Assembly: GCA_027044735.1 (NCBI GenBank)
Contig: JALUBW010000124.1
Span: forward strand, 1 to 13,242
Length of the DNA: 13,242 nucleotides
Direction: 5' to 3'
Source: Anaerolineales bacterium
GTDB lineage: Bacteria > Chloroflexota > Anaerolineae > Anaerolineales > DRMV01
The notes beneath the pieces were generated by a model. The model ran no database searches and was not told where the DNA came from. It saw only the letters and a list, made by a program, of their open reading frames with translations. This document shows positions 1,293 through 6,712 of the stretch, piece after piece. How positions within the stretch are numbered: the stretch's first letter is position 1; every line of letters begins with the position of its first letter. The translations under genes and the position numbers were made by a program.

Positions 1293-1373
1293 TAGAAATT
1301 TTACCATCCGCAGTTGTGGTTCAAGGAATTGGAGGGAAAAATGTGTTTCCTGCGCATCGTTGCGCGTCATATT

Positions 1374-1382
1374 TGCTATAAT
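1374..1382 (+). promoter_or_regulatory. Extended -10 promoter for the three-gene operon
   Basis: TGC followed by TATAAT is a perfect extended -10 element, predicting a transcript start near 1389, about 35 nt before the ATG at 1424. No good -35 hexamer is seen 16-18 nt upstream, which an extended -10 can compensate for. It sits in unique sequence just after the repeats. The call rests on motif match only. Confidence 0.55.
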
Positions 1383-1423
1383 GGTCACAATGATCGTTTC
1401 GTTTACCCTGCCGGAGGCGGGCA

Positions 1424-3016
1424 ATGGATGAAAGAATCCACGCACGTAAGAAGATACCGGATGGGGAAATAAAGGCTCGCTTTCATCAGTTGGGGCCAGA
1501 AGCGTTGCCTGCTGGCTTCTACCTTGTACGACCTGACGGTAAGTTCTTGCTCGCAAGCAAACCGATCCGCCAGATGTTGAATCTCCCCGAAAACGGCGAC
1601 CCCAGAGGGAGCATAGCCGATTATTACGCTGACCCAGACCTTCGCGAAAATTTGCTTCGCGAGGCTGAGGAAATGGAGGCTAAAGGTGACTGGTTGAGAA
1701 ACGATAAGGTAGAGTTCAAAGTTCAAAGGGAAAACGGCGAGAGCAAAGTGATTGTGCAGATGTTTTGTAAGCCGTTGCGAGATGAAAAAGGGTTTGTTGT
1801 TGGTTATTACGGCTGTCTGGCCGATAAGACCAAAGAGTACAAACACAGGGAAGAAGAAAGAAGGCTCCGGGAACACGTCACTGAACTGGCGCTGGATATT
1901 GGGCGTGTAATTCATTACAACTCAACCACTTTGCAGATGGTAGAGAAGGCCCTGCGTCCAACTCTGGATTTCATTGCGCGCAGCCTTGGGATGCAGTTCA
2001 AAGCCGCCGTCACAACCGAGCCGGATATTATTTTGGAAAAATACGCAAATAGGCTGGTAAGGGCATTGGAAAAACTAATTAGTGAATCGGAAAAAGACGA
2101 TTGGACAAGAGGAGCGCTCCTTCCACCCCAGTGGGACTTCCTTGAGCAAAGTATTCAGAGGCTAAACACCTATCGCAATGAAATTAGTATAAAGGAAGTG
2201 CAGGCAAGTTTTCTGCGTCATTTAGCCGACGACATTAGGGATACGCTAAATAGAATAAGGCCAGGGCGTCTGCCGAGAGCCGTGGTGAAGAACGCCTACC
2301 GGGCTATTGATGAGTTAGAACAAGCAACATTGTTAGCACCACTGGTGAATTCTTATGTTGCTGTGAAACAAATGGAGCCTGCGCTTTCGGCACTACGGGA
2401 TTTTTTAACCACAGGGGCAAGAGAAGAGGAACCACTTGAGGAAATTTCGGTAGTGGAACTTGTTGCTCGTGCGGCAGAAAACATGAGCGAGTTTGCTGAT
2501 AGCAGAGGGGTTGAGGTAAGGCTACGAAACCTTTGCGAAGGGATTGACCCTAAAGTGTGGGGCAAACGCCGCGACCTCTTGCGCGCGTTTTCGAACATAA
2601 TTCATAACGCGATCAAATATACTTGGCGCCGAGGGAGGGGGAAAATGCCTTGGGTTGATGTCACAATAGAATGTGATTCGCCATACCCGAAGGAGGTCAG
2701 GATCGCGGTTGAAAACTGGGGTGTTCCCATACCCGAAGACGAGTATGAAACCATTTTTGAGATCGGCTACCGCGGCAGGCTTGCTACCGACCGCTACCGC
2801 ATGGGCACTGGTATGGGGCTCGCCGACGCCAAGCGGGTGCTGAAAGATCACGGCGGAGATATAAAAGTGGAGAGCCGTCCCGCCGCTTATAAAGAGCGGG
2901 ATAAAAATTCCCCCGATTATTACCACCAGCCGTTTTTGACCAAATTTACGCTCATTTTACCTTTAGGAGGGAACAATGGGAAAGTTCAGGCAACGGAAAA
3001 GAATGCTATGGATTGA
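1424..3016 (+). CDS. PAS-domain sensor kinase-like protein with HATPase domain and no canonical phospho-acceptor histidine
   Basis: The 530-residue product has no membrane segment, so a cytoplasmic sensor is expected. A PAS-like fold covers about residues 25-137 (AGFYLVRPDGKFLLASK, then a VGYYGCLADKT end), followed by a long helical region (about 138-340). The C-terminal HATPase domain is clear: N-box with N391 and N395 (NIIHNAIKYT), G1 box E430-N431-W432-G433-V434-P435-I436, and G2 box G461-x-G463-x-G465 (GTGMGLADAK). In the G1 box the usual adenine-contacting Asp is Asn, a substitution also found in other kinases. The best H-box candidate, FLRHLADDIRDTLNRI (residues 263-278), has D269 or R272 where HisKA-type or HisKA_3-type alignments expect the histidine; H266 is three residues off. 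The start is set by GGAGG at 1413-1417. Its 3' end overlaps the receiver gene by 41 nt. Whether it autophosphorylates is uncertain. Confidence 0.85.
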   Translation: MDERIHARKKIPDGEIKARFHQLGPEALPAGFYLVRPDGKFLLASKPIRQMLNLPENGDPRGSIADYYADPDLRENLLREAEEMEAKGDWLRNDKVEFKVQRENGESKVIVQMFCKPLRDEKGFVVGYYGCLADKTKEYKHREEERRLREHVTELALDIGRVIHYNSTTLQMVEKALRPTLDFIARSLGMQFKAAVTTEPDIILEKYANRLVRALEKLISESEKDDWTRGALLPPQWDFLEQSIQRLNTYRNEISIKEVQASFLRHLADDIRDTLNRIRPGRLPRAVVKNAYRAIDELEQATLLAPLVNSYVAVKQMEPALSALRDFLTTGAREEEPLEEISVVELVARAAENMSEFADSRGVEVRLRNLCEGIDPKVWGKRRDLLRAFSNIIHNAIKYTWRRGRGKMPWVDVTIECDSPYPKEVRIAVENWGVPIPEDEYETIFEIGYRGRLATDRYRMGTGMGLADAKRVLKDHGGDIKVESRPAAYKERDKNSPDYYHQPFLTKFTLILPLGGNNGKVQATEKNAMD

Positions 3017-3578
3017 AGACAGTGCACGCTTTGAATTGGTAGAGCAAATGGCACCGGTGTATTACAGTGGTGAATACATCTTTCACCTTGCCGAAAATGT
3101 GGCAGATGGCATAGACCACCTTAGGTCAGCCAAACGCAAGGGCAAACCTTATGACGTGGTCATCTTTGACATACGCCTTCCCCCTGGTGAGGACAAGGTG
3201 TGGCAGGATCTTTACAAGCGCACGATTCATAGCCAGGTAGAATCGCAACTCGGCTTGATTTTGCTTTATTGGCTTTTTGAAGGGGATTTGACAGGAAACC
3301 TCGCAAACTTTAAGCGTCCTGGCAACCCAGATGCCGGCAAGAATATAGAAGAGCGACTCGCCGAGCTAAGGGACAATGGGGTCCGCCCCCCCCATGTTGA
3401 CAAAAAAACGGCGGCGGTTTACACGGTTGAGCAACCGGGTCTCATTTGCCCCCTTTTAAACCATCTCGGCATTAAAGTTTACGCTCAAAAATCTATAGAC
3501 ACCCCAGATGATATTCTACTTCAACTAGCAAGAGCGGTTTTTGAGGAAACTAATAATTTTCGGTGTCCAAAATGGTGA
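2976..3578 (+). CDS. Atypical response-regulator receiver protein with a large insertion
   Basis: The 200-residue product has receiver hallmarks in order: RMLWIEDS with acidic pair E14-D15 (metal site), VVIFDIRLPP with D65 as phospho-acceptor, AVYTVE with T150 (switch residue) and VYAQKSIDTP with K172, then a last helix (DDILLQLARAV). D65 to T150 is 85 residues, against about 30 in a CheY-like receiver, so some 55 residues are inserted between strands 3 and 4 (about 80-145). There is no DNA-binding domain; output may be by protein contact. The start at 2976 is set by AGGAGG at 2965-2970; M10 at 3003 is a weaker alternative that would shorten the overlap with the kinase gene. The coding sequence contains a run of 8 C (3386-3393) and of 7 A (3402-3408). 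Overlap with the kinase-like gene suggests translational coupling and a partner role. The receiver call is confident; the output is unknown. Confidence 0.8.
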   Translation: MGKFRQRKRMLWIEDSARFELVEQMAPVYYSGEYIFHLAENVADGIDHLRSAKRKGKPYDVVIFDIRLPPGEDKVWQDLYKRTIHSQVESQLGLILLYWLFEGDLTGNLANFKRPGNPDAGKNIEERLAELRDNGVRPPHVDKKTAAVYTVEQPGLICPLLNHLGIKVYAQKSIDTPDDILLQLARAVFEETNNFRCPKW

Positions 3579-3590
3579 TGGGAGGAAACA

Positions 3591-4757
3591 ATGTGTAGTG
3601 TATCACTGCCATGGGATGCTTTGATTACTATTGTGCTTTACCTTGTTGGCGTACCTCTCCTTTTAGGGCAAACGGCTAGTGCGTCTGTACGCCACGTGCT
3701 GCTCAATGAAATCGGGGATAAAATAAAAACCGTTATGACGTTAAGTATCACAGTAATAGTGGTACTGCTCTTATGCATCTTTCTATTTTGTGCAGGGGGA
3801 AAAATGTCTATCGTCATGCTGTTAATTTTAACTATATTTGCAGTGATTTTTTCTGTGTTGGGCTTGATGATAGTACATTTGAGGTCGTTGTTAATTTTTC
3901 TCAAACGTTCTGCTGTAAAATCTTTTCGAAGGGGGAAGAACGAAAAGTTTGAGCGTTACGTGGGGTATCTTAGTTTACTCGGCAGGGAGTCAAACACAGG
4001 GGAAGTGCAGGTCATGGCAATACAAACGCTAGGGGAAGTAATAAAAAGGTGTACAAGTTTGCAATCTTCTAAAGCCACTCTAGTTTACGACGGCACCTCC
4101 CTTGAGAAAGCAATATGGGGAATGAAGAATGTGTTACTGAAATCCTCTTCTGAGCCGTCGCTAATGGCGTTTTCCGCATTCATAAGAGAAGCGAGAGGCC
4201 TCTTGAACATATATGATCAACTGCCTCCTGAAATCAAGTGGAAGAAAGACTCCGCCGAACTCGCTTATGCCCTTTCTGAAGTTGGGTGTGAAGTAATAAA
4301 ACTTTACCCCCATAGCAAGGAGTGTGATCGGGCGCCTGCTCTATTAGGGGAACACGGTTGGCTTGGCAAGTGGGCTACTCATTCTTTGGTCAATATACTC
4401 AAAGAAGCCGTCGCTCAGCGTCACTCTATGGCAATACTGTCCGCCTTGACTGGCATAAGGCAAGTCCTTATTGAGCAAAGTGATAAGGGTGAGGAAGCAC
4501 TTTACGATTACATTGGGGCTGTTGCCTTCGCTTTCCTTAACTGTAGCATTCCAGGTAAGCGTTTCGCTGAGCAACTCTGGCAGGAATTTTGTGAAGCCAA
4601 TGATCAAGAACCAAGTAGCGCGTGTAAAGGGTATGCTGAGGAAGCATACAATCATCACGTCCGCATGGGTCGCTTTGCCCTCGCCGATGCCATCCACCAC
4701 ACTTTCATTGACCCGCCATCTCCCCCACCTCAATCCCTCGCCCCCTCAATTCCTTAG
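3591..4757 (+). CDS. Membrane protein with three N-terminal helices and a long cytoplasmic helical domain, function unknown
   Basis: The family is not recognised. The 388-residue product has hydrophobic segments at about 10-27, 49-68 and 73-96, followed by a basic stretch ([14 protein letters not shown], about 102-118). The positive charge places the C-terminal 280 or so residues in the cytoplasm and the N terminus outside. The soluble part is rich in predicted helices ([29 protein letters not shown]) and has a loosely repetitive helical look. The start is fixed by GGAGG at 3581-3585, only 12 nt after the receiver stop, so it is in the same operon; a plausible role is membrane output of the signalling pair. 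Codons such as TTA, ATA and AGG are more frequent than in lepA, hinting at foreign origin. The last nine codons and the TAG stop lie inside degenerate octamers of the 4730-4888 array, so the tail [11 protein letters not shown] is repeat-derived. Confidence 0.75.
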
Positions 4758-4888
4758 CCCCCAATCCCCCAATCCCTCAATCCCTCAATCCCTCAATCCC
4801 TCAATCCCTCAATCCCTCAATCCCTCAATCCCTCAATCCCTCAATCCCTCAATCCCTCAATCCCTCAATCCCTCAATCCCTTAATCCC
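4730..4888 (-). repeat. Octamer array, TCAATCCC (GGGATTGA on the minus strand), 13 perfect units plus flanking variants
   Basis: Thirteen perfect TCAATCCC units run from 4777 to 4880. Before them are CCAATCCC twice (4761-4776) and degenerate units reaching into the upstream gene (TCAATCCC 4730, TCGCCCCC 4738, TCAATTCC 4746, TTAGCCC 4754, which contains the stop codon). TTAATCCC (4881-4888) follows. The array ends 8 nt before the -10 element of lepA. The unit is the reverse complement of the 738-769 array on the other side of the operon. Perfect units imply recent, probably ongoing, length change by slippage. Confidence 0.95.
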
Positions 4889-4896
4889 CACAATGG

Positions 4897-4902
4897 TATA
4901 CT
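4897..4902 (+). promoter_or_regulatory. Candidate -10 element of lepA giving a near-leaderless transcript
   Basis: TATACT ends 10 nt before the lepA ATG at 4913, predicting a leader of about 0-5 nt. No Shine-Dalgarno-like sequence lies between. The -35 position falls in the octamer array and no TTGACA-like hexamer is seen. Supported by motif position only. Confidence 0.45.
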
Positions 4903-4912
4903 TACTGCCGCT

Positions 4913-6712
4913 ATGGCAGAGCACATCCGCAATTTCTCCATAATTGCCCACATTGACCACGGCAAGTCCACATTAGCCGACCGCCTGCTCCAACTCACCG
5001 GCACGATTTCGCCGCGTGAAATGACCGAGCAGGTGCTGGACGATATGGATTTGGAGCGCGAAAAGGGCGTTACCATCAAAGCCTCCGCCGTGCGGATGCT
5101 TTACACCGCCCAAGACGGCAACACCTACGAACTCAACCTCATTGACACCCCCGGCCATGTGGACTTTGGCTACGAGGTCAGCCGCGCCCTCGCCGCTTGC
5201 GAAGGCGCGCTTTTGGTTGTGGATGCCACCCAAGGCGTTGAAGCCCAAACTTTGGCAAACCTCTACCTCGCGCTTGAAAATGATTTAGAAATCATCCCCG
5301 TCATCAACAAAATTGACCTCGCCTCTGCCCGCCCAGATGAGGTCGCCAAAGAAATAGAAAGCCTGCTCGGCACGCCCGCCGACCAAATTCTGCGCGTCTC
5401 CGCCAAAGAGGGCACAAACGTTGAGGCGGTGCTTGAGGCGGTGGTGCGCGAAATCCCGCCGCCGCAGGGCGACCCCACTGCCCCGCTGCGCGCCCTCGTC
5501 TTTGATTCCCACTACGACCCCTACAAAGGCGTTGTGGCGTATGTGCGCATTGTTGACGGCACGGTGAGCGCCGATGATACGCTGATGCTGATGGCTACGG
5601 GCGCTTCGTTCAAGCCGGTGGAAATCGGTGTTTTCACCCCCCACATGACGCCTACCGGCAAACTCACTGCGGGCGAAGTCGGCTATATCGCTACCGGTTT
5701 GAAAACCGTGCGCGATGCCCGCGTCGGCGACACAATCACCAACGCCCAGCGCCCTGCTCCCGAACCGCTCCTCGGCTACCGCCACCCCAAGCCGATGGTC
5801 TTCGCCGGAATTTACCCCGTGGAAAGCGACGACTACGAAGACCTGCGCGACGCCCTCGCCAAACTCCAACTCAACGACGCCGCGCTGGTTTACGAACCCG
5901 AAACCTCGCAAGCCCTCGGCTTCGGCTTCCGCTGTGGGTTTTTGGGCATGTTCCACATGGAAATTGTGCAAGAGCGGCTGGAGCGCGAATACGGCTTGGA
6001 CATTGTGGTTACCGCCCCCTCGGTGGAATACCAAGTTGTGCTGCGCGATGGGCGCACGGTGGTTATTGATTCCCCTGCCGAAATGCCCGATGAAGCCGAA
6101 ATTGCCGAAATCCGTGAGCCGTGGGTAAAACTGCAAATTTTCACCCCGACCGAATTTTACGGCGCGGTGATGGAACTGGCTACCAAGCGGCGCGCCGTCT
6201 TCGTCGGTCAGGAATACCCCTCACCAGAGCGCGTGGTGCTCAATTTTGAAATGCCGCTTTCGGAACTCATCGTGGATTTCTTTGACCAACTCAAATCACG
6301 CACCCGCGGCTACGCTTCTCTGGACTACCAATTCCTTGAATACCGCGCTGGCGACCTTGTCAAACTCACCATTTTGGTCAACGGCGAGCCGGTTGACGCA
6401 ATGGCGGCAATTGTCCACCGCGACGAGGCATACCACAAAGGGCAAAAACTGGTCTCCAAACTCAAAGAACTCATCCCGCGGCAACTTTTCACCGTGCCGA
6501 TACAAGCAGTTGCGGGTGGAAGGGTAATTTCGCGCGCCAACGTCAAAGCCCTGCGCAAAGACGTGCTCGCCAAATGCTACGGCGGCGATGTGACGCGCAA
6601 GAAAAAACTGCTGGAAAAGCAAAAACGCGGCAAAAAGCGCATGAAAATGGTGGGGCAGGTTGAAATTCCGCAAGAAGCCTTTCTGGCGGTGTTGCGGCTG
6701 GGGGAGGATTAG
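4913..6712 (+). CDS. lepA: Elongation factor 4 (LepA), ribosomal back-translocating GTPase
   Basis: 599 residues, the usual LepA length, starting [20 protein letters not shown]. The GTPase motifs are intact: G1 AHIDHGKST (residues 12-20), switch II DTPGH (78-82) and NKID (132-135). Then come the EF-G-like domain II ([18 protein letters not shown]), domain III, and the LepA-specific C-terminal domain ending in [19 protein letters not shown], a close match to the family's conserved tail. LepA is a cytoplasmic GTPase that binds the ribosome and acts on stalled or mistranslocated complexes and in initiation and assembly. The ATG has no Shine-Dalgarno and follows a -10 element by only 10 nt. The next gene starts 6 nt after its stop, so the two are probably cotranscribed. 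Identification is essentially certain. Confidence 0.98.

Follow-up and report, generated by a model that had tools for sequence, protein, structure and literature searches.

A conserved kinase, receiver and membrane protein operon from an Anaerolineales bacterium is an unnamed variant of two-component systems

The two-component systems described so far mostly act on transcription or through an enzymatic output. Among three-gene units, Detocs is presented as a defensive two-component unit whose best-described effector is a purine nucleoside phosphorylase (PNP) enzyme (PMC11249213). Here we analyse a compact three-gene operon in a 13,242-nucleotide stretch of Anaerolineales DNA, referred to as the window (contig JALUBW010000124.1, our C124, of assembly GCA_027044735.1), which derives from a genome that is 63% complete and comprises 1.3 Mb in 264 contigs. 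The operon encodes a kinase with a PAS domain, a receiver and a membrane protein. A preliminary description, made from the letters of the window, had proposed a signalling unit of unrecognised type, and the three-gene unit does indeed carry no family name. The genes and the predicted parts of their products are as follows.

1424-3016, plus strand: kinase gene, an open reading frame (ORF) of 530 aa; PAS domain at residues ~26-138, helix 136-186 with H164, helices ~200-275, helix 285-330 and HATPase_c at 381-487 (Pfam and AlphaFold2).
2976-3578, plus strand: receiver gene, ORF of 200 aa; E14, D15, D65, T150 and K172, with an extra segment after beta3.
3591-4757, plus strand: membrane protein gene, ORF of 388 aa; N-terminal helices 8-28, 42-69 and 73-95, cytoplasmic alpha-solenoid 97-373 and Y-x-G near residue 166 (model, hydropathy and alignments).

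The kinase and receiver ORFs overlap by 41 nt, and a gap of 12 nt separates the receiver from the membrane protein gene. GGAGG occurs at 1413-1417, 2966-2970 and 3581-3585, 5-6 nt 5′ of each of the three ATGs. This layout, as first described, was confirmed from the ORFs and the sequence. Judged from aligned sequences, both the operon and its catalytic residues are conserved. We favour, with roughly even confidence, a compact phospho-signalling unit in which the kinase phosphorylates the receiver and the receiver docks on the membrane solenoid.

The receiver family was found in 15 of 396 genomes of the class (21-row receiver profile, 1e-10); as genome searches scored few first-look candidates per genome, all carrier counts are lower bounds. 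The kinase lay directly 5′ of the receiver in 14 of the 15. In the fifteenth, G237, no kinase match was found in the 576 bases upstream of the receiver, up to the contig end. The third protein was present in seven of the 396 genomes, all of them receiver carriers, and its gene was directly 3′ of the receiver each time, with spacing that ranged between a 17-nt overlap and a ~130-nt gap. Joint presence of receiver and third protein gave a Fisher p of 2e-11, assuming that both 396-genome draws were identical. Pairwise identities were correlated across the module (kinase and receiver, rho 0.89; receiver and membrane protein, 0.65; kinase and membrane protein, 0.69; 21 non-independent pairs). In the phylum, receiver profile A3 matched 119 of 400 genomes at 1e-3. 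Only three of these reached E<=1e-49; the remaining 116, whose best E values were 5.9e-07 or weaker, were read as ordinary receivers. The third protein occurred in three of 400 genomes of the phylum, always in the window's gene order. The same order was seen in L014, the only locus found by a contig scan of genomes with the window receiver, and in a phage contig, L098. No match was obtained in plasmids, nor in named phages, which were searched with the receiver only. Thus the genes co-occur in one order, a point that had been marked for checking, and in the class the membrane protein was never seen away from the receiver.

The window kinase matched PAS (2.5e-05) and HATPase_c (PF02518, 2.5e-16) in Pfam, and neither it nor four relatives produced a HisKA match there. 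The AlphaFold2 model (11 sequences, mean predicted local distance difference test (pLDDT) 81.8, predicted template modelling score (pTM) 0.50) shows no membrane segment. In the model, helices 136-186 and 285-330 are read as a predicted dimerisation and histidine phosphotransfer (DHp) hairpin carrying a ~100-residue, largely helical insert. H164 is unchanged in 17 of 17 kinase copies, as is N395, with the two halves of a fusion in L014 counted separately. When the model was subjected to VIA-align 2 (50 rows), seven HK853 rows (6rgy_B, 6rfv_B, 6rh7_A, 5uht_A, 6rh0_B, 6rh8_A and 3dge_A) began at offset 96, which places H164 on H260; 6rgy_B alone begins before H164, while the other six begin 2-5 residues past it, so that their placement is extrapolated. 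The kinase sequence profile aligned with HK853 from about profile position 296 onward. By its position, H164 is a candidate phosphoacceptor on DHp helix 1. Most copies read D-I-G-R-x-x-H around the histidine, and at the aligned place a SHE-LRTP-like H-box was absent from all 17. The sensor had been said to lack a normal H-box; this is true of the motif, but an invariant H164 aligns with H260 of HK853.

Other readings of the kinase were rejected. A kinase devoid of a phosphoacceptor was rejected on the invariant H164. Replacement of His by Asp in DDIRDTLNRI (~270-279), considered by eye for its resemblance to SHELRTPLNAI, was discarded, as the segment is unconserved and falls where the inserted helices end. 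PDB matches to the PAS domain were obtained at 9e-07 to 9e-06, and we take some of these entries to be LOV domains. A LOV photoreceptor kinase was set aside, the window PAS region, read by eye, having no NCRFLQ-type flavin-binding cysteine motif. In L014, the kinase gene (1315-4158) is a tandem partial duplication in a single 947-residue ORF: a full kinase is followed by a second copy that has no PAS domain and retains the phospho-histidine.

The window receiver scored no Pfam family, Response_reg included, and the receiver family profile matched PDB response regulators (best 4q7e, 1.6e-06). E14, D15, D65 and K172 were invariant in 17 of 17 receivers, and T150 was T or S in all of them; the set includes the G661 copy, with its stop codon aligned as X. 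By these residues the receiver is catalytically complete. Its extra segment, placed by alignment only, lies between beta3 and alpha3, where most members share the motif LPPGxDxxW. Ahead of beta4 there is another, variable segment, which reaches its greatest length in the subfamily of the window and is shorter in P0010, P0012, L022 and L023. The earlier picture of a receiver with a large insertion and no output domain is therefore kept as to a stand-alone protein with an extra segment, and is corrected as to where the additional sequence lies. The G661 receiver (L083, ~4780-5256, minus strand) contains an in-frame TAG, reflecting either a pseudogene or a sequencing error.

The third protein is predicted to consist of three membrane helices followed by a cytoplasmic alpha-solenoid. 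Its AlphaFold2 model (pLDDT 82.6, pTM 0.77; membrane-helix blocks ~61-70) gives three N-terminal helices, and nine Lys/Arg directly follow the last one, as expected for a cytoplasmic C-terminal part. No Pfam or NCBIfam match above chance and no PDB-sequence relative were found; below the cut-off stood Tetraspanin (0.29) and, in the L023 relative, TPR-S (0.017). Foldseek returned no match at E<=0.001, and the Foldseek and VIA lists showed weak helical-repeat matches; that other families are missing from these lists carries no weight. A known name was sought in Pfam, NCBIfam, PADLOC, PDB sequences and confident folds, and none was obtained; both protein searches with this query were confined to scoring the 7,999 candidates with the most words in common. 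Neither a catalytic nor a pore signature was recognised in the protein. These profile and predicted-structure searches, recommended at the outset, agree with the initial view of an unrecognised 3-helix membrane protein.

When the receiver profile was run against IMG/VR, one full member was identified, on the 76,662-bp contig G741 (L098), where kinase, receiver and membrane protein lie head to tail with a 2-nt gap and a 1-nt overlap. The contig also carries integrase, terminase, major head and tape-measure genes, and a type I restriction-modification (R-M) operon (hsdM, hsdS, hsdR) whose hsdM frame is ~2.6 kb from the module, with a TPR gene between. Phage carriage was seen on this single contig, from which a frequency is not derivable. 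Three more single-protein IMG/VR scans yielded no other full member; a match in L108 was set aside because it spans 28 residues only, and a receiver in L099 because no partners were recognised beside it. G741 (L098, L101-L105) has, in addition, an FtsK-like gene, and some of its head and tail genes seem to be present in two versions. Beside hsdR, a 458-residue protein with a hydrophobic start (L101:7083-8456, minus strand) has no Pfam or PADLOC match.

For the favoured phospho-signalling unit, we infer phosphotransfer, solenoid docking, the direction of signalling and the physiological output as follows. The cytoplasmic PAS kinase would autophosphorylate H164 on the DHp hairpin with its helical insert, and the phosphoryl group would move from H164 to D65 in the receiver, which has no output domain; the conserved residues argue that this transfer works. 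Once phosphorylated, the receiver would bind the cytoplasmic solenoid of the third protein, altering its state at the membrane. Docking is the simplest reading because a membrane alpha-solenoid is encoded right behind an output-less receiver. The last signalling step thus probably takes place at the membrane and not on DNA.

Several observations weigh against this account. Six genomes of family f41 (G039, G118, G137, G155, G661 and G668) have the kinase and receiver with no adjoining third gene, and a seventh, G237, has the receiver, likewise with no third gene beside it. The third protein was found in none of the five of these seven that were searched genome-wide with A4 (G118, G155, G039, G137 and G237). 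In the f41 pairs, the receiver would accordingly have another target, or the output is something other than the third protein. Confidence in the kinase model near H164 is moderate (pLDDT 67-78), and the residue following H164 is non-acidic, unlike the HisKA consensus. Other HK853 rows began at offset 95 (4jau) or 93 (4jas) or at unrelated pairs (6azr_A, 6rgz_A), and several covered the ATPase part only. For the membrane protein of the window, a hydropathy scan listed only two peaks.

The genome-wide search for the third protein, when extended to G151 and to G245, which had only a weak receiver match, was negative in all seven genomes. G151 is the eighth receiver genome in which the third protein was not seen, and its sequence ends 138 nt past the receiver. 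In G661 and G668, both outside the genome-wide search, no match occurred within the fetched stretches. Because f41 genomes keep the pair without it, the third gene is an accessory to a kinase-receiver core. The genes had been expected not to occur independently; six pairs and one receiver do so, while the third gene was behind a receiver wherever its surroundings were seen. In four of these seven f41 genomes (G118, G155, G237 and G661; two frames in G155), the receiver is immediately followed by a conserved gene of ~900 residues in convergent orientation. G622, also of f41, has the complete set of three genes and then this same gene. The copy at L064:2990-5683, whose only Pfam match is ILEI near the C-terminus, has homologues in L015, L016, L019, L020 and L083. 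It converges on the module or the pair in f41 loci; in L019 the convergent gene is ~5 kb away.

The pairs that have no third gene are more easily explained if the membrane protein tunes input, holding or switching the soluble kinase at the membrane while the receiver has its effect at another place in the cell. The kinase model, with no membrane segment, is compatible with such an input or anchor, and weak matches point to a resemblance between the helical domain and general scaffolds for protein binding. However, the third gene sits behind the receiver and not the kinase in all seven genomes, and the kinase has a PAS domain of its own. The predicted loops between the membrane helices are also very short in the window protein, which leaves no obvious external sensing domain. 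We consider an input role possible but unlikely. The same pairs could mean that an ordinary two-component pair is followed by an unrelated membrane gene through chance. This we regard as highly improbable, as the third gene was behind the receiver wherever its surroundings were seen (seven genomes, L014 and L098), in several families, in varied surroundings and mostly with tight spacing. The preliminary description had placed a membrane effector under a non-canonical two-component pair; the conserved unit agrees with this, but the third gene is not obligate and an effector is one of two readings of it.

The phage contig bears on a further alternative, an anti-phage system resembling defensive two-component systems, in which a kinase that detects infection would act through the phosphorylated receiver to set off a growth-stopping membrane effector. 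Carriage of the module near a type I R-M operon would fit this, as would its low GC (guanine plus cytosine) content in the window genome and its patchy presence (15/396). Against it, no PADLOC model matched the receiver, and none matched the third protein below E 0.5. The kinase matched the PADLOC candidate PDC-M43B at 4.5e-10 over residues 390-504 only, the ATPase part; membership of PDC-M43 was rejected, as this match is partial and the partners have none. Three of ten flanking genes from eight cellular loci matched PADLOC models (mad3, 3e-26; PD-T4-2_B, 3.3e-35; mad2, 7.6e-09). We take these to be an ABC-type ATPase, a RidA-like protein and a methyltransferase, respectively, and all three were read as general housekeeping families. 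The RidA-like gene is beside the kinase (L022:2811-3206, minus strand) and probably matches through a shared RidA-type domain. The third protein, moreover, has no recognised catalytic or pore signature. An anti-phage function seems improbable to us: of the defence role earlier thought possible, the phage contig with its nearby R-M operon is suggestive, but defence models give no support and the cellular neighbours little.

The low GC content was examined across the window and the source genome. Third-position GC is 0.51 in the kinase, 0.48 in the receiver and 0.45 in the membrane protein gene, compared to 0.66-0.74 in six downstream genes, so that the module is AT-richer than lepA and the genes beyond, as stated before. 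Comparison with the rest of the genome, which had been suggested, gave 0.53-0.82 (31 mechanical stop-to-stop frames in nine readable stretches; 14 were drawn and five reading as N were dropped). The contrast with the neighbours recurs in L014, whereas in L018, L064 and L065 the module has a composition like that of its neighbours. The low GC speaks for acquisition in the window lineage, and not for a property of the module itself. By composition, the proposed accessory island is hence retained for the window genome and its close relative L014, but does not extend to all carriers. The remaining features of the locus are as follows.

1374-1382, plus strand: extended -10 promoter element TGCTATAAT, read by eye; identical in the relative locus L014.
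790-1233, no strand: 82-bp tandem repeat, 5.4 copies, upstream of the operon.
4728-4888, no strand: 8-bp tandem repeat, 20 copies (repeat scan).
Upstream flank, minus strand: start of mutS, named by recognition of its translation.
4913-6712, downstream flank: lepA ORF, named by recognition.

In L014 (record titled Anaerolineales bacterium), the three genes are arranged as in the window, ahead of lepA. Alignment of the upstream region and gene start with L014 gave 77% mean column identity, with the same -10 element in both. A generic sigma-70 consensus scan did not list this element, and its output was close to chance (six promoter-like sites against a mean of 3.9). The shared extended -10 is thus upheld by its identity in L014, but not by the scan. 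Tandem repeats lie on both sides of the operon; the 8-bp repeat codes for the final residues of the membrane protein and occupies most of the gap to lepA.

If confirmed, the module would contribute a kinase design whose phosphotransfer hairpin contains an insert, together with output at the level of the membrane. It occurs in a phylum (Chloroflexota) whose signalling is little studied, and phage carriage provides a concrete link to phage-host conflict. A bolder formulation, which we hold to be doubtful, is a new two-component class in Anaerolineae-type bacteria and temperate phages: a split-DHp kinase would drive an output-less receiver onto a membrane alpha-solenoid, phosphorylation gating a membrane effector directly, possibly in phage defence or superinfection exclusion. 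In the literature, at the level of titles and abstract openings and with most subscription papers outside, nothing was recognised as this module.

In comparison with known systems, the module has the elements of a two-component system, as far as sequence can tell: a HATPase_c kinase, a putative phosphoacceptor H164 by position, and a receiver with the acidic pair, Asp, Thr/Ser and Lys. It differs from HisKA kinases (HK853 of Thermotoga, the CusS/CopS class) in having no Pfam HisKA match or SHE-LRTP H-box, in the ~100 residues that the model places between the hairpin helices, and in a G1 box that, in the window, reads ENWGVPI instead of the canonical DxGxG. Assignment as a canonical HisKA kinase was rejected because no H-box motif occurs in the 17 copies and helices 200-275 lie within the hairpin. 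Like CheY-like single-domain receivers, the module receiver has a complete phosphorylation site, and its family profile matches PDB response regulators; unlike them, it has the LPPGxDxxW segment after beta3, no Pfam Response_reg match and, in part of the family, a membrane protein gene behind it. The third protein differs from HEAT, ARM and TPR alpha-solenoids, being membrane-anchored in its predicted form, with no sequence relationship to them found and no Foldseek match at E<=0.001. Detocs (PMC11249213) is likewise a three-gene two-component unit, but in the third protein of the module no Pfam domain, PNP included, scored above the cut-off. The module is, then, a conserved and unnamed two-component variant, not categorically new, that is distinguished by an unusual predicted kinase hairpin and by a new family of membrane partner.

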